A stretch of 64,000 bases of DNA, from NCBI RefSeq assembly GCF_025685605.1, contig NZ_JAGTUT010000001.1:1550001-1614000 (forward strand). Direction: 5' to 3'. The notes beneath the pieces were generated by a model that was given only the letters and a program-made list of their open reading frames with translations, searched no databases and was not told the DNA's origin. Both the position numbers and the translations under genes were made by a program. Shown piece by piece: positions 23,351 through 35,562 of this stretch (positions are counted from its first letter, which is position 1; the number at the start of each line of letters is the position of its first letter). Source of the DNA: Granulicella arctica (GTDB lineage Bacteria > Acidobacteriota > Terriglobia > Terriglobales > Acidobacteriaceae).

Positions 23351-25234
23351 ATGACCGATAAACGACGCCTGATTCTGGTGATCCCGGCGGTGGTGCTGGT
23401 GCTTTGCCTGGTGGGAAGCTTTCTGACGCAGGGCGCGATGGCGAACCTGCAGTTTTTGAAGAACGGCAAGGGACCGGGCTCTCGGAGCAGCGAGATCGTC
23501 GACCAGCTGCCGCTGCAGACAGCGCAGGCGCTGACGCCACTGGCGGTTTCGGCGGAGGAGCAGGCGTTTGCGCATGAGTCGCTGCGGGTGGCGGACCATG
23601 AGGTCGATCAGGCGTTCGCGATGGCGCTGCGGCAGGCTAATGCTGAGAACAGGACACTTACGGGCAAGGCGTTGGAGGTGTCGCAGAAGGTGACAGCGCT
23701 GCAGCAGACGGTGAAGGACGACCAGGCGGGCGTCGATGCGCTGGTGGCGAGCGCCAAGGCGCGCAATCCGGGCGTGGACGACGATGAGCTTGATGTGGCG
23801 AAGGCCCAGCTTTCGCTTGATACCGATGAGCTGACGGATACGCAGAACAACCTGGCGGTGGTAAGCGGGGATCAGCGCGGCAAGATCCAGGAAGAGCTGG
23901 CGGCGCATGACGCCGGGATGAAGAAGTACGACGAGCACACGGATGGTGGGCAGACGGCGGTGATCTCGTCGCGGCGGTACGGCACGCTGGCGGGACGGCT
24001 GAAGGGCTACTTTGACCAGTTAAGCCGGGAGAGCCTGATCGAGCAGGCGAAGACGCAGGCGGACGCTGATGCCAAGACGCTTACGGCTCAATATGCGACG
24101 CTGCAGCAGAAGGCTGCCACGCTGACTACGAGGATGAATGCGGACCGGGCGCAGGCGAACGCTCCGGCGGCCGCCCCGGTGCCGGCGACTATCGCGGGTA
24201 CTCCGACCGCAGCTCCTACGGTTGTGGCAGCTCGGCCTTCACGGCTGATTTCGCTCCGCCGGCTGGAGGCGCAGAAGAACATTCTCGGTATTCTGGACGA
24301 TCGCATCGAGGGCCAGAAGGAACTTTCCACCAACTATGCGAAATGGCTGGCGCAGGTGCAATTGCAGCACCGGATCGTGGTTCACCTGATTCTGCAGTCT
24401 TTTGCGTGGATCGCCTTTATCGTGCTGTGCGCCGGGTTAACGGGGATGCTGGTACAGATCCTGGTGGAGCGCCGGATGAAGAACCGCACGCAATCCGAGC
24501 TGCGCAGCATGCACACGCTGCTGACGGTGCTGCGGCTGGTCGTGCAGTTGGCGGCGCTGATGCTGATTCTGCTGGTGGTCTTTGGACCACCGAGCCAGGT
24601 GCCGACGATCCTCGGACTGGCTACGGCTGGGCTGACGGTGGTGTTCCAGGATCACATTCTGGCGTTCTTCGGCTGGTTTGTGCTGATGGGGCGGAACGGG
24701 ATTCGGATTGGGGACTGGGTCGAAATCTCGGGCGTGGGCGGCGAGGTGGTGGAGGTCGGGCTGTTCCGAACGACGTTGCTCGAGATGGGCAACTGGACGG
24801 AGAAGGGACACCCGACGGGGCGGCGGATCTCGTTTGTAAACAAGTTTGCGATGTCGGGGCAATATTTCAACTTCTCGACAAATGGGCAGTGGATGTGGGA
24901 CGAGCTTACGGTCAACAGCCCGGCGAGTGAGGACAGCTTTGCGGTGATGGAGCGGATTCGGGCGATGCTGGTGGAGAAGACGGCGGAGGATACGGCGCTG
25001 GCCGAAGCGGAGTGGAAACGCTCGACGCAGCAGAATGTGTTTACGCAGTTCAGCGCGACGCCGTCGGTCGAGATGCGGCCTGCGGCGGCGGGGATCGACC
25101 TGGTGATCCGGTATGTGACGCGGGCGGGTGATCGGCTGGATATGCGAAACAAGCTGGCACAGGCGGTGATCGGGCTGATGCGTGGGGGCGCGGTTGTGGC
25201 GCCTCCGGCAGCGATTGAGGCGCAGACGGGTTAG
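23351..25234 (+). CDS. MscS-type mechanosensitive channel with long N-terminal domain
   Basis: A 627-residue protein. An N-terminal signal or anchor segment (VIPAVVLVLCLVGSFLTQ) precedes a periplasmic, coiled-coil-rich region of about 300 residues rich in Ala, Gln and Asp. Membrane helices follow at roughly 340-430, including the pore-lining helix ILGLATAGLTVVFQDHILAF, then the MscS beta domain (GIRIGDWVEISGVGGEVVEV). This is the layout of large MscS/MscM-like channels that open on membrane tension. It ends 8 nt before the convergent E2 gene. Confidence 0.9.
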   Translation: MTDKRRLILVIPAVVLVLCLVGSFLTQGAMANLQFLKNGKGPGSRSSEIVDQLPLQTAQALTPLAVSAEEQAFAHESLRVADHEVDQAFAMALRQANAENRTLTGKALEVSQKVTALQQTVKDDQAGVDALVASAKARNPGVDDDELDVAKAQLSLDTDELTDTQNNLAVVSGDQRGKIQEELAAHDAGMKKYDEHTDGGQTAVISSRRYGTLAGRLKGYFDQLSRESLIEQAKTQADADAKTLTAQYATLQQKAATLTTRMNADRAQANAPAAAPVPATIAGTPTAAPTVVAARPSRLISLRRLEAQKNILGILDDRIEGQKELSTNYAKWLAQVQLQHRIVVHLILQSFAWIAFIVLCAGLTGMLVQILVERRMKNRTQSELRSMHTLLTVLRLVVQLAALMLILLVVFGPPSQVPTILGLATAGLTVVFQDHILAFFGWFVLMGRNGIRIGDWVEISGVGGEVVEVGLFRTTLLEMGNWTEKGHPTGRRISFVNKFAMSGQYFNFSTNGQWMWDELTVNSPASEDSFAVMERIRAMLVEKTAEDTALAEAEWKRSTQQNVFTQFSATPSVEMRPAAAGIDLVIRYVTRAGDRLDMRNKLAQAVIGLMRGGAVVAPPAAIEAQTG

Positions 25235-25242
25235 CGCCCGCG

Positions 25243-25764
25243 CTACTCGGCGATGCTGATAGGGGCGGACCAGGGGGCGGGAGTTTCTACGGCCGCGGCG
25301 GTGGGCGGAGCTATGGGGCGAGGGTCGAGCGGAAGGAGCTGCGGGTGCTCGGCGGCCCAGCGTGCTGCGAGGCCATTGAGGGGGCTGCGGGTGTTGTACT
25401 CCTGGTAGGCGATCATGCGGCCAATGCGGATGATGAGGTCATCGAGGCCTTCGGAGGCGGCCCAGAAGTCGCCGATGCAGACACTGGCGTCGTCGAAGTT
25501 GGGGTGGAAGACGGGGGTGTGCATGCGACACTGCGGGGCACGGCGAGGATAGTCGAGGGAGAGATTGATCTCCATAAGGTGAGAGCTGCGCTCGTGGATT
25601 TCACCCTGCGGGTTAACGTAGAGGCCCTTGATGGCATAGGTGATCCGGTAGACCTCGGGCGGCATGCCAGCGGTGCCGGTGATCTGGATGAGCGGCCAGT
25701 CGGCGAAGCGGTGCTTGAGGGCGTCGTGGTCGAGCTTGAGACGGCGGATGCGGGGTGAGGCCAT
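25243..25764 (-). CDS. Bacterial E2 ubiquitin-conjugating-enzyme-like protein
   Basis: A 173-residue protein with the UBC fold signature. The HPN tripeptide at residues 87-89 (VFHPNF) is followed by the candidate catalytic cysteine C96 (DASVCIGDFW), preceded by the E2-typical strand and proline pair (LSLDYPRRAPQCRM). The helix after the cysteine (LDDLIIRIGRMIAYQEYN, then SPLN) matches the E2 C-terminal part. It would accept the ubiquitin-like protein from the E1 as a thioester. About 35 proline/alanine-rich residues end the protein. It is the last gene of the eight-gene operon, 9 nt after the GYF_2 gene. Confidence 0.85.
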   Translation of the reverse strand: MASPRIRRLKLDHDALKHRFADWPLIQITGTAGMPPEVYRITYAIKGLYVNPQGEIHERSSHLMEINLSLDYPRRAPQCRMHTPVFHPNFDDASVCIGDFWAASEGLDDLIIRIGRMIAYQEYNTRSPLNGLAARWAAEHPQLLPLDPRPIAPPTAAAVETPAPWSAPISIAE

Positions 25765-25773
25765 GACTGAATC

Positions 25774-26448
25774 TTAGTAGGGATTGGAGATGCGGTAGGC
25801 GCGCTTGATCTCGTTGATGCGGTTGAAGTGGTATTGGAAGTAGAGACAGCCGAAGAAGAAGGTCATGACGCCGGAGAGGGTGAGGCCGATCGGTTCGACG
25901 GTGGTGAAGTGCTTTTCCATTGAACTGCGCATGGCGAACCGGTAGACGATGAGCAGGACGATGTAGCCGAGCGTGATCAACAGGGAGATGCTGGACATCA
26001 GCGGGGAGCCGATTGCGCCCGCTCTGTTCGAGGCGGTAATCGCGACGTTGCCGATGGAGAATGCGATGTTCAGTCCCCAGAGGGCTACGTAGGCGATGTT
26101 GTAGAGGAGTGCCTTGGTGTCGGGCTGGACGCGCTTCATCCAGGAGGTCTGGATGAACTCCCACACGATGATGAAGATGCCGCAGCTCAGAAAGCCGAAG
26201 AGCAAGACTAGAGCCCAGTGGAGGTTTGGGGCGTCGGGATACTGCGGCATGGCGGCGTATGGGACGGCGGCCTGCGGCTGTGCGACGGCGATAGTGCCAA
26301 TAACTTGAGAGACGGGGAGCCAGTCGGTGGAGCCTTCGGCGCGGGCGAGGTCGGTGAGGAGGATGTTGCCGGTGCCGACATAGCGCTGTACATCGGAGAG
26401 GGAGTAGGGGCCAAACTCCTGGCCGTCACGCGAGATTTGATAGGTCAC
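25774..26448 (-). CDS. GYF_2 domain membrane protein of the ubiquitin-like operon
   Basis: A 224-residue protein. The N-terminal 50 residues form a GYF_2 (DUF4339) domain: YQISRDGQEFGPYSLSDVQR with the conserved G-P-Y/F-S and GSTDWLPVSQV. Several hydrophobic segments (HWALVLLFGFLSCGIFIIVW, LMSSISLLITLGYIVLLIVY) follow, as in DUF4234-type membrane proteins. GYF-like domains bind proline-rich peptides, so a proline-rich operon partner such as the RING protein is a natural ligand; this is inference. The start is GTG, set by AGGAG six nt upstream. It lies 25 nt after the RING gene. Confidence 0.82.
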   Translation of the reverse strand: MTYQISRDGQEFGPYSLSDVQRYVGTGNILLTDLARAEGSTDWLPVSQVIGTIAVAQPQAAVPYAAMPQYPDAPNLHWALVLLFGFLSCGIFIIVWEFIQTSWMKRVQPDTKALLYNIAYVALWGLNIAFSIGNVAITASNRAGAIGSPLMSSISLLITLGYIVLLIVYRFAMRSSMEKHFTTVEPIGLTLSGVMTFFFGCLYFQYHFNRINEIKRAYRISNPY

Positions 26449-26473
26449 ATTCTTCTCCTAGCTGGTGTGTGAA

Positions 26474-27088
26474 TCAGCTTAGCAGCACCCCGTCGTCGTC
26501 AACATTTATTGTGCAGGCTTCGATGATTGCCCAGATCCAGGGGATGGCGGAGGCCCAGAAGCAGGTGCAGAGGGTGATGCAGAGTTGGATGACCGCCTTC
26601 TTGGTGTAGCCAGCGTAAAAGTTATGGGCACCGAAGCTGCCGAGGAAGACGGCGAGGAGGACGAAGGCTACGCGGCTCTTCGGCTTGACGTAACTGCCGT
26701 AGGCGTAGGCCGGGAAGGGCTGCGGCTGATAGTAGGGCACGATGGCCGGGGGTGGAGATGGAAAGCTGCCGTCGGGCATGGGTGGTGGTGGCGGAGCGGA
26801 TTGCAAAGGCGGTGGAACGGGAGCGTTGAGGTTGTAGTAGGAGTTTCCTTGCGGGGCGAGGTGGGGTGGGTGGAAGTCGGTGGGAGTGATGCTGATCTTG
26901 GCTTCGTCGGCTGGGGCGGCGGTGCAGCCAAAGATGGTGCAGCCACCATTCTCGGCGAAGCAGTCGGCGTGGTGCGGGGTGTTGCAGGCGGAGCAGAGCT
27001 TTACTTCGTCCGCAGGTTCTCCGTTGGCTCCGGCGGTTTCGAAGCCGGCGCGGCAGTAGGGGCAGACGGCAGCGGCGGTCTCGGTCAT
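26474..27088 (-). CDS. RING-like zinc protein fused to TM2 domain (candidate E3 ligase)
   Basis: A 204-residue protein in three parts. Residues 9-55 form a binuclear treble-clef/RING-like motif with ligands C9, C12, C32, C35, H40, C43, C50 and C55 (CPYC, LCSACNTPHHADCF, GGCTIFGC). Residues about 70-125 are a proline-rich linker. Residues about 135-204 are a TM2 domain (VAFVLLAVFLGSFGAHNFYA, then IPWIWAIIEACTINVDDDGV) with two membrane helices. In this operon a membrane-tethered RING next to E1, E2 and ubiquitin-like genes is the obvious E3 candidate. The cysteine spacing is not the classical C3HC4 spacing. Its ATG overlaps the FHA gene stop by 4 nt. Confidence 0.82.
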   Translation of the reverse strand: MTETAAAVCPYCRAGFETAGANGEPADEVKLCSACNTPHHADCFAENGGCTIFGCTAAPADEAKISITPTDFHPPHLAPQGNSYYNLNAPVPPPLQSAPPPPPMPDGSFPSPPPAIVPYYQPQPFPAYAYGSYVKPKSRVAFVLLAVFLGSFGAHNFYAGYTKKAVIQLCITLCTCFWASAIPWIWAIIEACTINVDDDGVLLS

Positions 27089-28176
27089 CGCTGCTTCTCC
27101 TGGTAGCGGAAGCCGTAGCGGCCGATGCGGAGGATAGATCCTGACTGGAGGACGTGGGTTCCGCGGATGGGGCTGCCACCGACGTAGACCGTTCCGGTAG
27201 GGACGACGTGGATGCGGGAGCCCTTAAGGAGCAGGGTGGCGTGCGCAGGGAGGATCTCGGCGTCTTTGAAGAGGTAGATGTCGGCCTGCTGGTTCGAGCC
27301 GAGGGTGGTGACGGGCTTATAGAGGATGAATTGTTTTCCGGCCAGCGGGCCTGCGGTGACGTAGAGCCAACGATCTTTAAGGGCGGACTCGACAAGGCCC
27401 ATGGCGATGCCGGTTGCCATGCCGAGAAGGGCGAAGCCGATGGCTCGGCTGGGGGCAGCGCTGTGGGCGGCTCCATGGGCGCTATGACGTTCCATGAGGA
27501 AGGCGATGGGATCGAAGATGGCTCCGCCGAGGAGGGCTCCAAGTGCGCCGCCGAGGGCGCCGTAGCCTGCTTTGCGCCCGGACTTGCCGATGATGCCGTA
27601 GACGAGGCCACCGGCTGCTCCGAAGGCCATCCACGCGATGCCGCGCACGAGCCAAACGGCGGGGTTGTGGAAGGACTGCACTCCTGCGGCTCCGAGAATG
27701 CCGAGGCCGATGTTGTAGATAAGGTTGGCAATGAAATCGAAGATGAAGCCGAAGACGATGCCGAGCGGAAGGGCGATCGCAACGCGGATGAGGCCCTTGC
27801 GAGCGGAGCGTTCGACTAAGCTTTCGGCGATGCCGAAGGCGACACACATGAGGGCGACGATCAGCGGGAGGAGCCAGATGTTGCCCCATGTTTTGGCACC
27901 GGTGCCGTTGTCTACGAACGCATGCTCGCAGATGCCCCAGCCGGCGAGTGCTCCAAGGAGGCCTGCGCTGCCGAGATAGAGCCAGCCCTGGAGCCAGATG
28001 CTGGGCTTCTCTGCGGGCAGCGTTGGGTCGTCCGGCATGTCGTTGATGGTGCCGTAGATGCTTGTGCCGGAGGTGGAGGTCGTCGCGATTGCGGCCGGGC
28101 TTGGGAGAGTGATGGCCTCAAGATCGTCGAGGGTGATCTTGATCGTGTTGGGATCGGGCTGTGGAGATTCGCTCAT
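27085..28176 (-). CDS. Multi-span membrane protein with C-terminal FHA domain
   Basis: A 363-residue protein. An acidic, Thr/Ser-rich N-terminal stretch of about 60 residues may carry phosphothreonines. Then come several glycine-rich membrane helices (LYLGSAGLLGALAGWGI, AGYGALGGALGALLGGAIF, RAIGFALLGMATGIAMGLV). A C-terminal forkhead-associated-like domain spans residues about 275-363, with TTLGSNQQADIYLFKD, PAHATLLLKGSRIHVVP and GSILRIGRYGFRY. FHA domains bind phosphothreonine, so the protein may dock a Ser/Thr-kinase signal to the conjugation machinery; no kinase gene is nearby. It overlaps both neighbours by ATGA, which implies coupled translation. Confidence 0.85.
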   Translation of the reverse strand: MSESPQPDPNTIKITLDDLEAITLPSPAAIATTSTSGTSIYGTINDMPDDPTLPAEKPSIWLQGWLYLGSAGLLGALAGWGICEHAFVDNGTGAKTWGNIWLLPLIVALMCVAFGIAESLVERSARKGLIRVAIALPLGIVFGFIFDFIANLIYNIGLGILGAAGVQSFHNPAVWLVRGIAWMAFGAAGGLVYGIIGKSGRKAGYGALGGALGALLGGAIFDPIAFLMERHSAHGAAHSAAPSRAIGFALLGMATGIAMGLVESALKDRWLYVTAGPLAGKQFILYKPVTTLGSNQQADIYLFKDAEILPAHATLLLKGSRIHVVPTGTVYVGGSPIRGTHVLQSGSILRIGRYGFRYQEKQR

Positions 28177-29096
28177 TTCTTCTCCCTGGGAGTGTCTTGA
28201 GGCGATGGCGCGGGTGTCATAGGGGCAGGCTGAGGCTGCTGCGGGAATGGGTTATCGGTTGGCGCGGGCTGCGCGGCCTTGAGCGCCTCGGGATCAATCG
28301 GCGTGAGCTTGCCGGAGTGAAGGTCGAGTGTAAGGTAGCGCTGCGTCCGAGGGTCGATGTAGACGGCGTCGCCTGTCTTCGGGTCGTGGATCAAGGGCTG
28401 TCCCGTCATAGGATTCATGGGCAGGATAAGTGGATAGATCGCCGGAAAGAGGATATGCGAGACCGTGAAGCCGACGAGCAGGGCGGCGGCGAGCGCGGAG
28501 ATCGAGGCAGTCCAGCGGAGCCAGCGCGGCGGATGGCCGATGCGCATTCTGCTCTTCTTTGTGGGAGTCTCGTCGGGGTCGGCGTCCTGCAGGTCGGGGT
28601 CGCTGGACGAGGTCAGTTCGCGGCTTTCGGAGACGTTGGCGGGCGGTTGGCTGTCAGTGATGGTGAGCGCGGTGAGGCGGGCGATACTGCCGTTGATCCA
28701 GCCGAAGCAGCCCTCCTCGTCGGTGTGCGGATCGAAGACCCAGGCGACCTGATTGGGTGCGGAGAAGAAGTTTTCCTGGATGAAGGTGTCGTGCTCGGAG
28801 AGGAAGACGCCAAAGCCCGGGTGCGAGTGGTACCAACCGACGATGCGGGCTTCGGGGTAGTCGGCATCCTTGACCTTGTAGATGTGCTCCCAGGCATCCT
28901 GCGTAAACGTGACGTGGGTGCCAGCTTGCGTGGCGTTGACAGCGGCTATGGCAGCGAAGATGGTGGTGTCGGTTTCCGAGCCGGGCAGGAGGTCGCCGAT
29001 GAGGACGCCGCAGACCTCGGTGGTCATGCTGGAGCGGGCGTGCTGACGGATCTGGCGGGTGACTTCGGCGCTGATCTGGACGGCTGGGGTGGTCAT
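28173..29096 (-). CDS. JAMM/MPN+ isopeptidase with single membrane span
   Basis: A 307-residue protein with an N-terminal JAB1/MPN+ metallopeptidase domain. All JAMM residues are present: E27 (TEVCGVLIG) and the H-x-H-x7-S-x2-D set H90, H92, S100, D103 (GWYHSHPGFGVFLSEHD). A basic stretch precedes one hydrophobic helix (about residues 200-225), then a polar tail. By the positive-inside rule the protease domain faces the cytoplasm. It should remove or recycle the ubiquitin-like protein from targets. It overlaps both the E1 gene and the FHA gene by 4 nt. Confidence 0.9.
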   Translation of the reverse strand: MTTPAVQISAEVTRQIRQHARSSMTTEVCGVLIGDLLPGSETDTTIFAAIAAVNATQAGTHVTFTQDAWEHIYKVKDADYPEARIVGWYHSHPGFGVFLSEHDTFIQENFFSAPNQVAWVFDPHTDEEGCFGWINGSIARLTALTITDSQPPANVSESRELTSSSDPDLQDADPDETPTKKSRMRIGHPPRWLRWTASISALAAALLVGFTVSHILFPAIYPLILPMNPMTGQPLIHDPKTGDAVYIDPRTQRYLTLDLHSGKLTPIDPEALKAAQPAPTDNPFPQQPQPAPMTPAPSPQDTPREKK

Positions 29097-30298
29097 GCGG
29101 CCTCCGCGTTCTGGCCGAGAACTGATGAGGCGTCTCCGGCGATGAGGTAGGCGATCTCGTCGTCTCGACCTTCTTCGGTGGAGCGGGCGGTGAAGATGTC
29201 GTAGAGGGGCAGGCCCAGCTGGTTGAGGGTCAGGTCGGCGAGTTCGGACTGGCCTTGGAAGCCGGAGAGAGTCTGGACGATGCGAGGCGTGTTGTCGATG
29301 GGGCAGCGACCCTGCTGGTAGGTGAGCGAGCCTACGGGTTTGAAGACGGACTCTTCGGCGTGGCAGTGCGGGCAGACGAGCTTGTGGATGATCTCGCGGC
29401 TGAAGTCGATGGCGGCTTCGGTAGTGTTGAGGTCGTGCTGGGCGATGCTAAGGAGTTGACTCAGCGTTAGCTCTGAGGACTCTTGCTTGAGCTTGATGAG
29501 GCGGTCGAAGGTGTAGTGGCTCTGACAGTCGGGGCTCTCGGTGTAGTCGACCTTGTAGGAGCTGTGGTTGAGGCCTTCGAAGACGAATCCCTGCCCGGCT
29601 AGTGTCGGTAGGGCATGGACGAGTTTGAGGGCTTCCTGGGTCTGGATGCCCGCGATGATGGAGGAAATAGTAGGGGTGGTTGGGACTTTACCTGCGGTGT
29701 CGGCCTCGTGAAGGAGCAGGTTGCAGGACATGCGCTTTTCGAGGAGTGCCCAATCGGTGGCGCCGAGGGTGCACTCGTAGCACGGAGGCTGGCCGGGAAG
29801 GAAGACGCGGGCTACGCCGTTGATGCCTTCGATGGCGCCATCGATCCACGGGCGATTGACCTTCCAGGCGGCGCGGTTGATGAAGAGGCGGGCTTCGCGG
29901 TTGTCGAGGCCGGCGAGGATGAGGTCGCTCCAGAGGAAGACGCCGAGGCCGAGGGTGTGGAGGATGTTCGCGACGATGGGGGTGACAGCGGCTTCGGGGA
30001 GGAGCTTCTCGTAGGCTGCGGCTACGACGTCGGCTTTGAAGTGGCCGATAGACTCGTTTGAGAAGAGGATGGCGCGGGAGAGGTTGGTGACTTCGATCCT
30101 GTCAAGGTCGGTGACTACGATGTGCTGGAAGCCGAGGAGTGCCAGATTTTTCAGGATCTCGTTGCCGAGGGCTCCTGCACCGATGACGAGGATGCGGGCG
30201 GTGCGAATTTTCTCCTGATCCCACCAGGGGATGAGGCGGAAGCGGCTATAGCGGTCTTCTTCGAGGTCTGCGCCGATGTGGATGGTCTCGGTGGTCAT
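29093..30298 (-). CDS. E1-like activating enzyme (ThiF/MoeB family)
   Basis: A 401-residue ThiF-fold enzyme. The nucleotide-binding loop GAGALGNEILKNLALLGF begins at residue 40, followed by the acidic strand TDLDRIEVTNLSR typical of E1s. Two CxxC pairs, C173/C176 (PPCYECTL) and C309/C312 (VCPHC), probably bind zinc. C192 (KRMSCNLL) sits where E1s carry the catalytic cysteine. The enzyme would adenylate the C-terminal glycine of the ubiquitin-like protein and load it for the E2. The length exceeds plain ThiF by about 150 residues because of a C-terminal extension. Confidence 0.9.
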   Translation of the reverse strand: MTTETIHIGADLEEDRYSRFRLIPWWDQEKIRTARILVIGAGALGNEILKNLALLGFQHIVVTDLDRIEVTNLSRAILFSNESIGHFKADVVAAAYEKLLPEAAVTPIVANILHTLGLGVFLWSDLILAGLDNREARLFINRAAWKVNRPWIDGAIEGINGVARVFLPGQPPCYECTLGATDWALLEKRMSCNLLLHEADTAGKVPTTPTISSIIAGIQTQEALKLVHALPTLAGQGFVFEGLNHSSYKVDYTESPDCQSHYTFDRLIKLKQESSELTLSQLLSIAQHDLNTTEAAIDFSREIIHKLVCPHCHAEESVFKPVGSLTYQQGRCPIDNTPRIVQTLSGFQGQSELADLTLNQLGLPLYDIFTARSTEEGRDDEIAYLIAGDASSVLGQNAEAA

Positions 30299-30330
30299 GC
30301 GTCCTCTGTAGTGGCGGTGGAGAAGCAGAT

Positions 30331-30355
30331 TCCTCCGCTTCGCTGCGGAATGACA
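30331..30355. repeat. REP-like element inside the ubiquitin-like operon
   Basis: A 25-nt element (TCCTCCGCTTCGCT... ending GGAATGACA) in the 73-nt gap between the ubiquitin-like gene and the E1 gene. It contains a small stem TCCGC/GCGGA and resembles the copy at 21108-21132. Confidence 0.45.
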
Positions 30356-30371
30356 ACAAGAAGGCAGGATG

Positions 30372-30641
30372 CTAGCCGGCAGTGATCTCGGGCTGGAGGC
30401 GGAGGATGTCGCCGTCTTTGACGCCTGCGTCAGCGAGGGTCTGGGTGTCCTGAATCTGACGGCCGGAGTTCTTGTGGTGGAACTTGTAGCTGAGGGGTGC
30501 GCCGTCGGGACCGTTCATGGGCAGGGCGAGCTTCTGGACGAGGACAGCGACGATCTTGTTGCAGGGAGCGTCGTCGGGTAGCTCGGCGGGGACGCGCTTG
30601 TTTTCAGTGGAGTCGTAGACGGTGACGTTGAGGGTGGCCAT
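30372..30641 (-). CDS. Ubiquitin-like protein, YukD/EsaB type
   Basis: An 89-residue single-domain protein with a predicted beta-grasp fold (LNVTVYDS at the first strand, YKFHHKNSGRQIQDTQTLAD in the middle, GVKDGDILRLQPE near the end, the YukD/EsaB-like signature). It ends in a single exposed glycine (EITAG), as needed for E1 adenylation, with no residues beyond it. It is therefore the probable modifier conjugated by the neighbouring E1 and E2. The start was placed at this ATG because the upstream extension is out of character and overlaps the protease gene. It sits 13 nt after the protease gene. Confidence 0.88.
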   Translation of the reverse strand: MATLNVTVYDSTENKRVPAELPDDAPCNKIVAVLVQKLALPMNGPDGAPLSYKFHHKNSGRQIQDTQTLADAGVKDGDILRLQPEITAG

Positions 30642-30654
30642 GGTTTCTCTCTGA

Positions 30655-31731
30655 CTACTTCGTGGAGTGAAGGGCGTTGATGTAGCTCTGGAGGCGGTCG
30701 CGACCGCCCGCGGCGAAGTGCCAGACGTCGGGTGTGAGGAGTGCGGCGGGCTTGACGGCAAAGCTGAGATTTTCGGCGTTGGCGTCCTGGTTGCGGTCGA
30801 ACTTGGAGCTGACGATACCGGCGAGGTTGCCGTGATCGTCGTAGACCGGGCCGCCGCTGTTGCCGGGGCTGACGGCGGCGGAGATCTGAATCGCCTGATC
30901 GCGGAAGCCGGAGACGATGCCGGTGCTCAGGGTGTATTTCAGGCCTTCGGGATGGCCGATGACGAAGACGGCGGCTCCGTCGCTGATGGCGGTGAGGGGT
31001 TGGGTAAAGGCGAGGGTGCCGGTATGGCGGGGCAGCCAGAGGAGCGCTAGGTCGAGCTGGTCGGCGGTGGCGATGATGTCGGCGGTGCCCCAGGTGCCTT
31101 CCTGGGTGGAGAGGAGGACGTGCGAGGCCTTAGCGCCGAAGCGGCCTAGTGGAAGCTGCGCTACGTGCTTGGCGGTGACGAAGAGGTAGCCATCCTTATC
31201 GGCGTGGAGGAGCTCGCCCGCGCCGAAGGTGTTGGAGGGGGCGTCGGTCTGGGCGTGGCTCCAAAGGCGGGTGGCAGACGGTGAGACGACGATGACGAGG
31301 GGCTTGAGCTTAGCGGAGGCTTCGACGCTAGTGAGGGCGGTGGGCGTGGGGAGCGTGGGGAAGCTGGCGCGCTCGTCGAGGTCGGCGAGACCGGAGCCGG
31401 TGATGATGGGGGCGGGCGCGATGTAGAAGGCGATGGTTCCGACGAGCAGCATGAACAGGCCGCTGACGATCAGGAGGGTGGCAAGAAAGCCGGTCCAAGC
31501 GAACTTGATGCGCGGGGTCTCCGCACGGAAGGCGATGCGGAGAATGACGGTGACGATGCAGAGCAGAGGGAAGCAGAGCGCGACGAGGGACAGGCCGATG
31601 CGGGCCCACCACGGTATGGCCGGGGTGAGCTTTGCGGGCGGCGGCGTGTTGCTGGGCGAGGTGCTGGTGAGTAAGGCTTCGGGTATCTGGCTGACCTCGT
31701 ACCCGCTGACGATCACCTTCTGGGTCGACAT
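30655..31731 (-). CDS. Membrane-anchored trypsin-like serine protease
   Basis: A protein of 358 residues, first gene of the operon. Two membrane helices (about 43-64 and 81-104) are followed by a trypsin/DegP-fold protease domain with triad H189 (FVTAKHVAQ), D228 (DQLDLALLWL) and S292 (SPGNSGGPVYDD). No PDZ domain follows. The loop between the helices carries four basic residues, so the positive-inside rule places the protease domain in the periplasm. The start is the ATG giving MSTQK; an upstream ATG at 31854 is unlikely. Its link with ubiquitin-like genes is positional: 13 nt separate it from the modifier gene. Confidence 0.88.
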   Translation of the reverse strand: MSTQKVIVSGYEVSQIPEALLTSTSPSNTPPPAKLTPAIPWWARIGLSLVALCFPLLCIVTVILRIAFRAETPRIKFAWTGFLATLLIVSGLFMLLVGTIAFYIAPAPIITGSGLADLDERASFPTLPTPTALTSVEASAKLKPLVIVVSPSATRLWSHAQTDAPSNTFGAGELLHADKDGYLFVTAKHVAQLPLGRFGAKASHVLLSTQEGTWGTADIIATADQLDLALLWLPRHTGTLAFTQPLTAISDGAAVFVIGHPEGLKYTLSTGIVSGFRDQAIQISAAVSPGNSGGPVYDDHGNLAGIVSSKFDRNQDANAENLSFAVKPAALLTPDVWHFAAGGRDRLQSYINALHSTK

Positions 31732-31867: not shown

Positions 31868-31888
31868 ATGGCTTCTCAAACAGGCTAA
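31868..31888 (+). other. Leader micro-ORF (6 codons) overlapping the ackA start
   Basis: An ATG at 31868, five nt after a strong GGAGGAG ribosome site, opens a frame encoding MASQTG. Its stop TAA shares the A of the ackA start (TAATG at 31886-31890). ackA itself has little Shine-Dalgarno sequence, so it may be translated by coupling to this leader. Confidence 0.45.
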
Positions 31889-33081
31889 TGCAGATACTTG
31901 TTCTTAATAGCGGATCGACTTCGATCAAGTTTTCCTTCTTCGATGCTGAAGAGGGGTCTACGCCTGTGTCCGTTTTTGAGGGCGAGGTGAGTGGGATTGG
32001 CGGCTCAGAGGCTAAGTTTTCGTTTCGTGACGCGGATGGCCACGACCTTGCGCCGCCGGGAGCGAAGGCGCGGATCGGGTCGCTTGAGGAGGCGGTTGAG
32101 TTTGTGGGGCGCGCCGTGATGGGGCCCGAGGTGCCGAAGATTGAGGCGATCGGGTACCGAGTGGTGCATCCGGGGGCTCGGCTGAAGGGTCATCAGCGGA
32201 TCACGGATGAGGTTTTGAAGGAGCTGCGGGCGGCTGCGGAGTTTGCGCCGCTCCATGATCCGGCAGTGGTAAAGCTGATCGAGACGATGCAGGCGAAGTT
32301 TCCGGCTATTGCGCACTACGCGTGTTTTGATACGGTCTTCCACGAGACGATGCCTGCGGAGGCGAGCACCTATCCGCTGCCTGCTGAGTATGCGGGCAAG
32401 GGTGTGCGGCGGTATGGATTTCATGGGCTGTCGTGCGAGTCGATTGTGGTGCAGCTTCGCGAGGCGGGAGGAGACTTTCCCAAGCGGCTGGTAATCGCTC
32501 ACCTTGGGGGCGGTTGCAGTGTGACAGCGGTGCTCGAGGGCAAATCGATTGACACGTCGATGGGGCTGACGCCGACGGGCGGGATTGTGATGGCGACGCG
32601 GCCGGGAGACCTTGACCCGGGGCTGATGATGTACCTCCTGCGGCACCATGATGGCGATGTCGACGCTGTTGAGAAGATGTTGAACCACTCGTCGGGGTTG
32701 GCGGCGTTTACGCCTGCTGGCAGCGGCGATATGCGGGCGTTACGGGCTGCGGCGGATCGCGGGGCGGAGCGGGCCGGGCTGGCGGTAAAGGTATTTACCC
32801 GCAGTGTAACCAAGGCGATCGGGAGCTACCTGGCGCTGATGGGCGGGCTGGATGCAGTGGTGTTCGCTGGCGGCATTGGGGAGCATGATGCGGCGTCGCG
32901 GCAGGAGATTCTTGATGGGCTGCAGACTCTTGGCATCCAACTGGATACATCCCGTAATCAGGAAAAGAAGTCGGGCCTGCGCAGCATCAGCGCAGAGGGA
33001 TCGCCGGTCGCGATTAGCGTCGTTCCGGCTGAGGAAGATCGGATGATTGCAACCCACGTGGCGGCGATGTCCAGGGTGTAA
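31888..33081 (+). CDS. ackA: Acetate kinase
   Basis: A 397-residue acetate kinase of the ASKHA fold, the usual length. Family signatures are the N-terminal ILVLNSGSTSIKFSFF, ARYGFHGLS-type RRYGFHGLSCES, the phosphate loop HLGGGCSVTAV, DTSMGLTPTGGI and FAGGIGEHDAASR. It makes ATP and acetate from acetyl phosphate and ADP. The ATG at 31888 is chosen because it starts the conserved first strand; the open frame extends upstream without homology. It lies 69 nt before phosphoketolase, whose product acetyl phosphate is its substrate, so the two genes form a phosphoketolase-acetate kinase unit. Confidence 0.96.
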   Translation: MQILVLNSGSTSIKFSFFDAEEGSTPVSVFEGEVSGIGGSEAKFSFRDADGHDLAPPGAKARIGSLEEAVEFVGRAVMGPEVPKIEAIGYRVVHPGARLKGHQRITDEVLKELRAAAEFAPLHDPAVVKLIETMQAKFPAIAHYACFDTVFHETMPAEASTYPLPAEYAGKGVRRYGFHGLSCESIVVQLREAGGDFPKRLVIAHLGGGCSVTAVLEGKSIDTSMGLTPTGGIVMATRPGDLDPGLMMYLLRHHDGDVDAVEKMLNHSSGLAAFTPAGSGDMRALRAAADRGAERAGLAVKVFTRSVTKAIGSYLALMGGLDAVVFAGGIGEHDAASRQEILDGLQTLGIQLDTSRNQEKKSGLRSISAEGSPVAISVVPAEEDRMIATHVAAMSRV

Positions 33082-33150
33082 GTGACGGGCGTCACGCTGC
33101 ATTTTCATGCGCACGGACTAGAGTCTTTTGTACAAAGGAGTTTCATCCCT

Positions 33151-35562
33151 ATGAGCACGACCGAGCTGACTGCACCTGAGACGACGAAGTCACCGACCCT
33201 TGCGAGCGATGAGCTACGGCGCATCAATGCCTACTGGCGCGCCTGCAATTACTTATGCGCGGGAATGCTTTATCTGCGGGCGAACCCGCTGCTGCGCGAG
33301 CCACTGAAGGTCGAACATATCAAGAATCGGCTGCTGGGGCATTGGGGCTCCGATCCAGGCCAGAGCTTTACGTGGGTTCATCTGAACCGGCTGATCAAGA
33401 AGTACGACCTCGACCTGATCTATCTTTCGGGACCAGGGCATGGAGCCCCGGCTACGCTCTCGAACAGCTATCTTGAGGGCGTGTATTCGGAGGTCTATCC
33501 CGATAAAAGCAGGGACGAGGCGGGGATGCTGAAGTTCTTCAAGCAGTTCTCGTTCCCGGGTGGGATTGGGAGCCACTGCACGCCGGAGACACCGGGATCG
33601 ATCCACGAGGGCGGCGAGTTGGGCTACAGCATCTCGCATGGATTTGGCGCGGCGTTCGATAACCCTGACCTGATCGTGACGGTGGTTGTCGGGGATGGTG
33701 AGGCGGAGACGGGTCCGCTGGCGACGAGCTGGCACTCGAATAAATTTCTTAATCCAATTCGCGATGGCGCGGTGCTGCCGGTGCTGCACCTGAACGGGTA
33801 CAAGATCGCCAATCCGACGATCCTGGCGCGCATCTCGGCGGAGGAATTGGACGACCTTTTCAAGGGCTACGGCTGGAAGCCGTACGTGGTCGAAGGCGAC
33901 GACCCGATGCTGATGCACGAGAAGATGGCAACGGTAATGGAGCAGTGCGTGCTCGAGATCAAGGCGATCCAGAAGCATGCGCGAGAGACGGGCGACTGCA
34001 CACGACCACGTTGGCCGATGATCATTCTGCGCAGCCCGAAGGGGTGGACGGGACCGAAAGAGGTCGATGGGCACAAGGTGGAAGGGTTCTGGCGCGCGCA
34101 CCAAATTCCGATTCTTGACCCGAAGACGAAGGCGAGCGACTTTGCGGCGCTGGAAACGTGGTTGCGTAGCTATAAGGTCGAGGAGTTGTTCGACGAGGCG
34201 GGTACACTACGACCGGAGTTGCAGGAGATGGCCCCGAAGGGGCATCGGCGCATTACAGCTAATCCGCATGCGAATGGCGGGTTGTTGCGCAAGCCGCTTG
34301 ATATGCCGATCTTTCAGGACTATGCAGTTGATGTGAAAGAGCCGGGACAGCTTGAGTTGTCGCCGACCGACGTGCTGGCGCATTTTCTGCGCGATGTGAT
34401 GCGAAAGAATATGACGAGCTTCCGGGTCTTCGGGCCGGATGAGACGGCGTCGAACAAGCTGCAGGAGATCTACAAGGCAAGCAAGAAGACGTGGATGGCG
34501 AAGGAACTGCCGGAGGATCTGGATGGCGGCGAACTCTCTGTCGACGGGCGCGTGATGGAGATGTTGAGCGAGCATACGCTTGAGGGCTGGTTCGAGGGCT
34601 ATGTGCTGACGGGTCGGCACGGATTCTTCTCGTCATACGAGGCATTCGTTCACATCATCGACTCCATGTTCAACCAGCATGCGAAGTGGCTGGAGAAGAG
34701 CAAGCTGGAGCTGCGCTGGCGTGCGCCGATCTCCTCCATCAACCTGCTGATTACATCGCTGGTGTGGCGGCAGGATCATAACGGCTTTACGCACCAGGAC
34801 CCAGGCTTCCTCGACGTGGTGACGAACAAGAGCCCCGAGGTAACGCGCATCTATCTTCCGCCGGATGCGAACTGTCTTCTGAGTGTCGGAGACCATTGCC
34901 TGAAGAGTGAGAACTACGTCAACGTGATCGTGGCAGACAAGGCGGCGCATCTGCAGTACCTCAATATGGAGGACGCTGTCGCGCATTGCACGAAGGGCAT
35001 CGGTATCTGGGACTTCGCAAGCAATGACGATGGGGTTGAGCCGGATGTTGTGATGGCGTGTGCGGGGGATATTCCTACGTCGGAATCACTGGCGGCTACG
35101 GCGATCCTGCGGGAGCATTTCCCGGAGTTGAAGATTCGCTTCGTCAACGTGGTCGATCTCTTTCGGTTGATGCAGGAGCGGGAGCATCCACATGGGCTTT
35201 CGGAGAAGGACTTCGACAGTCTCTTCACCGTTGATAAGCCGGTGATCTTCAACTTTCACGCGTATGCTTCGCTCATCCACAAGCTGACCTATAAGCGGAA
35301 GAATCATGACAACTTCCATGTGCGCGGCTACAAGGAGAAGGGCAATATCAACACGCCGCTGGAGTTGGCGATTCTGAACCAGGTAGATCGGTTTAATCTG
35401 GCGATCGACGTGATTGATCGCGTGCCATGGCTGCAGAAGAAGGGTGCTCATACGAAGGAATGGCTGAAGGACGAGATCAATGCGAGCATTGCGTATGCGC
35501 ATGAGAACGGGATCGATCGGCCGGAGATTCGTGAGTGGAAGTGGCCGGTCGCTAAGGTTTAG
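33151..35562 (+). CDS. xfp: Xylulose-5-phosphate/fructose-6-phosphate phosphoketolase
   Basis: An 803-residue thiamine-diphosphate enzyme of normal length. Signatures: [20 protein letters not shown], the phosphoketolase pattern [20 protein letters not shown], the ThDP/Mg motif [20 protein letters not shown], and [12 protein letters not shown]. It cleaves xylulose-5-P (and often fructose-6-P) with phosphate to acetyl phosphate plus glyceraldehyde-3-P (or erythrose-4-P). The start at 33151 is fixed by AAAGGAG ten nt upstream. Coupled to ackA, it provides a route from pentose phosphates to acetate and ATP. Confidence 0.97.

Follow-up and report, generated by a model that had tools for sequence, protein, structure and literature searches.

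We analyzed a 64,000-nucleotide stretch of the Granulicella arctica genome (hereafter the window), in which eight contiguous minus-strand genes at positions 25243-31731 encode the parts of a ubiquitin-like conjugation cascade. In order, they specify a membrane protease, a ubiquitin-like protein (Ubl), an E1-like enzyme, a JAMM isopeptidase, a membrane FHA protein, a RING-TM2 protein, a GYF_2 membrane protein, and an E2 enzyme (Table 1). Neighboring genes overlap by 4 nucleotides at the E1/JAMM, JAMM/FHA, and FHA/RING junctions, and the remaining gaps measure 13, 73, 25, and 9 nucleotides. An earlier note on this DNA, made from its letters, had given the coordinates, strand, order, and all three overlaps correctly. 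In a Pfam scan of the window each of the eight proteins exceeded the curated cut-offs, among them the UQ_con, ThiF, JAB, YukD, Prok-RING_1, TM2, FHA, and GYF_2 profiles that the note had proposed as a check, and these matches support its claim of a full Ubl, E1, E2, and JAMM set plus an E3 candidate.

Table 1 Features of the conjugation operon, with positions numbered from the first letter of the window.
Feature	Position	Strand	Basis
Trypsin-like (S1C/HtrA-type) membrane protease, 358 residues	30655..31731	-	Trypsin_2, 69.1 bits (cut-off 27.6)
Motif copy 1, VIVSGYEV, protease N-terminus	31693..31716	-	Held-out homologue test
YukD-type Ubl, 89 residues, ends ITAG	30372..30641	-	YukD, 56.5 bits (cut-off 27)
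Ubl C-terminal ITAG, predicted conjugation terminus	30375..30386	-	ExxAG in 51/52 Ubl frames
E1-like enzyme, 401 residues, ThiF adenylation domain and C-terminal region with cysteine pairs	29093..30298	-	ThiF, 162 bits (cut-off 28.1)
E1 Cys192, candidate thioester cysteine	29723..29725	-	Invariant in 42 aligned sequences
JAMM isopeptidase, 307 residues, hydrophobic segment at residues 195-220	28173..29096	-	JAB, 56.3 bits (cut-off 22.5)
JAMM zinc and catalytic box, HSHPGFGVFLSEHD	28788..28829	-	H[ST]HP-x6-S-x2-D in 84/86 homologous frames
Membrane FHA protein, 363 residues, several hydrophobic segments, then degenerate FHA domain	27085..28176	-	FHA, 27.3 bits (cut-off 20.7)
Motif copy 2, IKITLDDL, FHA-protein N-terminus	28120..28143	-	Held-out homologue test
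FHA domain, Arg replaced by Ser and Ser by Leu in the GarA alignment	27121..27309	-	Alignment to GarA/OdhI
E3 candidate RING-TM2 protein, 204 residues, C4HC3 RING-like domain at the N-terminus joined by a proline-rich linker to the TM2 domain	26474..27088	-	TM2, 55.3 bits (cut-off 27.9)
RING-like domain, eight zinc-ligand positions	26924..27064	-	Pattern in 68/73 homologous frames
Motif copy 3, ISITPTDF, directly after RING, in linker	26873..26896	-	Locus survey and 3/3 new linkers
GYF_2 membrane protein, 224 residues, GTG start, two hydrophobic segments	25774..26448	-	GYF_2, 34.3 bits (cut-off 25.8)
E2 ubiquitin-conjugating enzyme, 173 residues	25243..25764	-	UQ_con, 35.5 bits (cut-off 27)
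E2 catalytic Cys96	25477..25479	-	Invariant in 29 aligned sequences; HPN precedes C96
Motif copy 4, short form ISIAE, E2 C-terminus	25246..25260	-	Looser E2 pattern

An E2 alignment was used to scan one genome per species across 84,980 species, and 82 loci were confirmed, of which the best 80 were retained; these loci were fetched through two E2 patterns and so represent this E2 family rather than bacterial systems at large. Record titles among the best 80 name Acidobacteria, Verrucomicrobia, Planctomycetaceae, Phycisphaerales, Armatimonadetes/Zipacnadia/WS1, and Bacillota, as well as KSB1, Sumerlaeota, Bacteroidetes, Deltaproteobacteria, and Acidimicrobiia, with Asgard archaea as the weakest (loci and genomes are denoted below by L and G numbers where needed). 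When gene order was mapped with purpose-built hidden Markov models, counting split or doubled neighbors once, the full eight-gene order was kept in 22 of 32 acidobacterial loci, and the other 10 all start at a contig end. Because the order is identical in these 22 loci, the grouping is not a product of chance, and together with the Pfam matches it rules out chance or mis-called genes; the gene-neighborhood survey thus agrees with the note's expectation of a gene set conserved in related genomes. Departures from the layout among these 10 include L047, where no separate JAMM was called and the E1 frame reads on, and L066, where GYF is missing between RING and E2. The operon is patchy within the genus, with the Ubl in 5 of 62 genomes (E ≤ 1e-20), and across the phylum 7 of 396 sampled genomes gave some match (E ≤ 1e-6), three of them strong; two members of the phylum sample (G327 and G342) have all eight genes in order.

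The Ubl, with a mean column identity of 87% across 6 species, has a C-terminus that reads ...LRLQPEITAG and ends in glycine as described in the note. After removal of same-contig duplicates and type VI loci, 52 Ubl frames remained; among the 51 with ExxAG, 31 terminate there and 20 bear a variable tail of 1-10 residues. Because of these tails the Ubl looks like a precursor that would require a cut by the JAMM enzyme, and a JAMM enzyme of Caldiarchaeum trims a 9-residue tail from its Ubl, according to the available text of PMC5654768. The sole ExxAG exception is the first of two tandem Ubl genes in L063 (5102-5707), which ends LRLFAF without AG and therefore should not be conjugated in the same way. 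Against PDB sequences, the Ubl matched ubiquitin chains alone (E about 0.05).

The residues on which conjugation and its reversal would depend are in place, as the note had read them. The E1 contains GAGALG, corresponding to the expected GxGxxG, and the two cysteine pairs C173/C176 and C309/C312. In the E2 family the HPN...C pattern was found in 86 of 86 frames, for loci fetched partly with an HPN-bearing pattern outside which the cysteine lies, and the alignments in which E1 C192 and E2 C96 are invariant span many phyla. The JAMM box is complete, reading E27...H90-x-H92...S100-x-x-D103; in eleven Armatimonadota-like loci the operon holds three JAMM frames, each with an H-x-H box. The best-scoring solved relatives are eukaryotic: UBE2B/UBE2A (Rad6-type) and UBE2C for the E2 family profile (best 60 of 98 matches), UBA2/UBA3 for the E1, with CBASS Cap2 much lower (best 60 of 75 matches), and Rpn11 for the JAMM protein. 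For the RING-like domain, the ligands C9, C12, C32, C35, H40, C43, C50, and C55 do not vary across an alignment of 44 sequences that had been preselected by the ligand pattern; the count made without that selection is the 68 of 73 frames in Table 1, the five frames without C4HC3 being truncated or fragments. Prok-RING_1 scored 43.2 and 41.7 bits on the homologues from L095 and L106.

Hydropathy analysis predicted membrane-like segments in five of the eight proteins (protease, JAMM, FHA, RING-TM2, and GYF), in keeping with the membrane-centered set envisaged in the note; the E2 and Ubl have none, and the E1 has one weak stretch. In the protease, two or three hydrophobic segments occupy residues 45-104 and the protease domain is C-terminal, with an H/D/S triad recognized by eye. 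FHA domains contact phosphothreonine through a conserved Arg and Ser. Across 48 sequences of the FHA family, the window included, the contact Ser is present in none and the contact Arg in 7, which speaks against this domain as a phosphothreonine reader and leaves the note's 'phospho-binding' membrane partner unsupported; we read the domain as a repurposed scaffold. A strongly conserved patch, which in the window reads ALKDRWLYVTAGPLAGKQFILYK, immediately precedes the domain. In two Verrucomicrobiota loci, the E2 is fused to a C-terminal FHA domain (L056 10001-10831, L062 10028-11011).

The protease, FHA, and RING proteins have in common, at their tips or in linkers, a short motif, phi-x-phi-[ST]-x-x-[DE]-phi (phi = hydrophobic), of which the E2 carries a shorter form. 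In acidobacterial loci, with the window excluded, the motif was found in 17/25 proteases, 22/25 FHA proteins, 21/25 RING proteins, and, by a looser C-terminal pattern, 17/31 E2s, compared with shuffle expectations of 0.21, 0.19, 0.07, and 2.48, respectively; because the motif was worded after inspecting the component tips, this count is not independent and held-out homologues serve as the test. Among flanking genes as a control, the motif occurred in 2 of 276 N-termini and the looser E2 pattern in 25 of 276 C-termini. The held-out proteins carried the motif in 76 of 77 FHA N-termini (0.88 expected), 107 of 111 protease N-termini (1.19 expected), and 61 of 115 E2 tails (5.59 expected), counts whose force is reduced because the proteins were taken as the top 120 from longer match lists and are closely related to one another; homologues of a single family are not independent, and the weight therefore lies on four unrelated families sharing the motif. 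The sets had first been thinned of near-duplicates (identity of 95% or more) and, where N-termini were counted, of entries that lack an initial Met, going from 119 to 112 to 77 (FHA), from 119 to 114 to 111 (protease), and from 120 to 115 (E2). All three new RING linkers also have the motif, and in many of the listed E2 tails that lack the strict pattern, DPW or a similar sequence still precedes a terminal stretch of alternating hydrophobic residues.

Beyond Acidobacteria, we divided the loci into mixed phylum groups of our own definition, an Armatimonadota-like group that takes in two Bacillota-labelled and several unlabelled loci and a Verrucomicrobiota-plus group that includes KSB1 and one 'Deltaproteobacteria'. 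The latter has the motif in 5/6 proteases and 7/8 FHA proteins. In the former, an acidic form, [DE]-phi-x-phi-x-phi, was found in 21/24 E2 and 11/11 protease C-termini and in 16/42 JAMM N-termini, with 1/103 C-termini and 7/103 N-termini of flanking genes as the control. A loosened pattern also matches some E1 N-termini (9/16 and 4/7), and its matches within the Ubl fold (VPVELPDD) were disregarded as core structure.

SUMO-interacting motifs consist of a hydrophobic strand (phi-x-phi) and acidic residues in a flexible region outside folded domains. The shared motif resembles them: it has their sequence pattern, with disorder judged by position and composition only. Our best guess for its receptor is the Ubl, which is favored because a motif of the acidic form is still seen in Bacillota loci that yielded no FHA gene of the family. 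The alternative, that the motif docks on the FHA domain through a phosphothreonine-type or degenerate pocket, with the FHA protein as scaffold and the Ubl not the receptor, appears unlikely. Known FHA sites read pThr-x-x-Asp, and the Ser/Thr of the motif with Asp/Glu at +3 is similar; the FHA protein is present in most acidobacterial operons, and the E2-FHA fusions point the same way. Against this stand the loss of the contact Ser (48/48) and Arg (41/48), the acidic form in Bacillota loci L095, L096, and L106, in whose covered DNA no FHA gene of the family was found, and the frequent replacement of Ser/Thr by Asp/Glu in that form. That the operon belongs to a multi-phylum membrane Ubl system in which the E2, E3, protease, FHA protein, and in some lineages the JAMM enzyme dock a SUMO-interacting-motif-like peptide on the Ubl is a tentative proposal, to which we give somewhat less than an even chance. 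According to the available portions of a 2025 SUMO review (PMC12687455), the prokaryotic systems discovered recently all lack the groove that binds such motifs.

Several observations weigh against a Ubl cascade held together by this motif. The Ubl ends in a single glycine, not two, and Bacillus subtilis YukD was reported as not conjugated in the part of PMC1779556 available. Between the hydrophobic segments of the protease is a positively charged loop, which by the positive-inside rule would place both the protease domain and the motif outside the cytoplasm. Within the tested regions, no strict motif occurred in acidobacterial GYF proteins (0/37), E1 C-termini (0/23), or Ubls (0/22), and the 4 matches among 21 JAMM proteins all fall on the active-site box; RING linkers of the Verrucomicrobiota-plus group gave 0/6 and its E2s a weak 3/9 (1.13 expected). 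Prok-RING_1 scored 29.3 bits on the RING-TM2 protein with a cut-off of 29.1, only 0.2 bits over, and the best PDB match of the RING profile was the EL5 RING domain at an E value of 0.0016, with PHD fingers also matched. Because the RING barely clears the Pfam cut-off and its PDB matches are weak and include PHD fingers, E3 activity of the RING-TM2 protein is a guess.

With these points taken into account, we think it likely that the eight genes encode a working protein-tagging cascade at the inner face of the cytoplasmic membrane whose parts are joined by one docking motif; the operon is real and conserved, and probably an active membrane-tethered Ubl cascade. The sequence shows the gene set, the key residues, their conservation, and the motif; the reactions, the membrane site, the receptor, and the purpose we infer as follows. 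The JAMM enzyme would trim the Ubl where it is tailed and later strip it from targets. The E1 would adenylate the ITAG end and load the Ubl via Cys192, and Cys96 of the E2 would take it over. The TM2-anchored RING protein may then guide the charged E2 to substrates in or near the membrane, where lysines would be tagged; scaffolding, target binding, or effector functions may fall to the FHA, GYF_2, and protease components in the membrane. Copies of the shared motif would dock on a common receptor, possibly the Ubl in the manner of a SUMO-interacting motif, and hold the parts together. The likely purpose would be envelope-protein control or quality control.

An anti-phage role, with the operon a cousin of Bil or Bub, seems improbable to us. 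It would accord with the published view, as given in the available text of PMC12687455, that bacterial Ubl cascades with E2 and protease serve mainly phage defense, and with the patchy occurrence of the operon. Among 127 of the 181 flanking genes collected, no PADLOC family fell on more than 2 (best 25 of 162 families), single matches including Argonaute, type II methylase, and reverse-transcriptase models; a defense island is therefore not indicated, and the phage-defense link suggested in the note finds no support in these genes. The window E2 had no match in 50,697 phage records and the E2 profile none in viral contigs, so that no phage carriage was found. One distant plasmid match was found, in the cyanobacterium Crinalium epipsammum (L119, NC_019754.1, 38825-42302), where E1, E2, and JAMM occur with a pair of small Ubl-like genes, one of which ends EGGY. 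As far as the accessible text of PMC13373217 goes, protection against phage has yet to be demonstrated for Bub, and a fixed set of genes with a slowly evolving Ubl would be unlike arms-race genes. A sulfur-transfer or cofactor pathway of the MoeB/ThiF-MoaD type, or a YukD-type secretion accessory, in either case without protein conjugation, is very improbable: the E1 scores against ThiF/MoeB models and the Ubl belongs to the YukD family, with its unconjugated Bacillus member, but the MoeB/ThiF models listed all fall far below their cut-offs, a JAMM enzyme, a RING protein, and an E2 with HPN and Cys share the operon, its seven scanned window neighbors are of other kinds and supply no type VII context beside ESX/WXG100 export genes, and no WXG100 gene was matched in the genome.

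The cascade preferred here is of a kind that had been predicted. Burroughs, Iyer and Aravind (2011, Mol Biosyst) predicted sporadic operons in which Ubl, E1, E2, JAB, and RING occur together, with Acidobacteria named (via PMC4197634 and PMC12687455, each available in part), and a 2014 review citing them states, in its available text, that Actinobacteria, Planctomycetes, and Acidobacteria carry uncharacterized operons related to the archaeal cluster of ubiquitin, E1, E2, RING, and deubiquitinase (PMC4197634). Because related acidobacterial operons are stated there, the kind is not new, and the note's suggestion of a distinct type combining all roles with an E3 was overstated. In the window, as in the predicted operons, Ubl, E1, E2, and JAB are accompanied by a Prok-RING_1 protein, and the E2 has HPN and Cys. 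For the shared motif, the degenerate FHA domain, and the type VI cassettes described below, no description was found in our searches, which covered an open-licence library. The operon is a variant of the predicted kind with a new, testable docking-motif hypothesis.

The operon of Caldiarchaeum subterraneum is similar in having a Ubl with a removable tail, E1, E2, a small RING, and an Rpn11-like JAMM. By what is available of PMC5654768, the window operon differs in being bacterial, in a YukD-type Ubl that ends AG where the archaeal one ends GG, in a C4HC3 RING where the archaeal RING is a C3H2C3 RING-H2, in the membrane anchoring of its RING and JAMM proteins, and in its extra FHA, GYF_2, and protease genes. 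Bil (BilABCD) and Bub likewise place a bacterial Ubl, E1, E2, and protease in a single operon; the window operon has eight genes, membrane anchors, and no recurrent adjoining defense genes. Its E1 matches BilD weakly (32.9 bits) and its E2 matches no PADLOC family; no other Bil model appeared among the PADLOC families listed (E1: best 25 of 32), so that it does not group with Bil, for which the available review text mentions no RING.

Around the operon are a gene for an MscS-type channel (23351-25234, plus strand) and genes for acetate kinase and phosphoketolase (31888-35562, plus strand). The seven neighboring window genes scanned with Pfam encode these three and ketoacyl- and chalcone-synthase-like, TPR, and pro-kumamolisin proteins, and a scan for promoters and terminators gave no signal above shuffles. 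In one genome (G050; L020 and L134), the operon is broken between GYF and E2, all eight genes being open; its lone E2 is not an operon remnant, since the remaining seven genes lie at a distance of about 46 kb or more, and because those seven still adjoin the same acetate kinase and phosphoketolase genes we take the split for a rearrangement. An optional ninth gene, DUF2752, lies between GYF and E2 (L025 9316-9702, L125 13671-14063), and its cluster comprises nine loci on seven distinct contigs (Pfam on one member and L125). Phi_1 genes account for 7 of the 127 flanking members, taken as a seven-member cluster of four loci; besides Phi_1 and DUF2752, no recurrent partner was found by PADLOC and Pfam among the 127 of 181 flanking genes. 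The genome of the window contains a second JAB gene (G000:C1:2757419-2757667) and, on a different contig from its only E2, a type VI VipA gene (G000:C2:534300-534764).

UQ_con identified 16 loci in 14 of 100 genomes, that of the window included: the single match of the window's genome, six of window type (one split), three of a first type VI cassette, and six of a second, type VI-like locus. The first cassette (L026, L024, and L028, in G005, G044, and G055) holds DnaJ, E1, a YukD-type Ubl, E2, and JAMM among VipA, TssA, TssM, TssL, and TssK; its Ubl ends GG, beyond which the L024 copy is tailed. The second locus (L019, L021, L027, L029, L030, and L031) combines VipA, TssC, VWA, FHA, E1, and E2, and its Ubl-like protein, of 86 residues, ends NG and has no Pfam match. 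In the DNA covered, a VgrG-like gene accompanies 5 of the 6 second-type loci and a S/T kinase 2 of the 6, and in three of them (L029, L030, and L031) Val replaces the Pro of HPN. Pfam identified the type VI genes of L026, L028 (one protein), and L030; those of the other loci were located with tblastn. Both cassettes, which come from the genus of the window, share with its operon a Ubl ending in Gly, E1, and E2, and one type shares the JAMM; they differ in having no RING gene by profile search, in second-type FHA homologues without the N-terminal motif (0/6), and in their E2s, which form two groups separate from the window type in an E2 tree whose few columns and long branches we rely on for this separateness only. 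The location of these sister cassettes among type VI secretion genes suggests that bacteria employ Ubl tagging for more than phage defense.

As a compact bacterial example of an entire E1-E2-RING-JAMM cascade, the operon can serve as a model whose named relatives are open to study: components are present in records named Edaphobacter aggregans DSM 19364, Anoxynatronum buryatiense, Granulicella arctica, and Silvibacterium acidisoli. Should the Ubl prove to bind the shared motif, the operon would allow a direct test of how ubiquitin-family enzymes came to be held by short motifs, and Ubl recognition of the SUMO-interacting-motif type would exist in bacteria.

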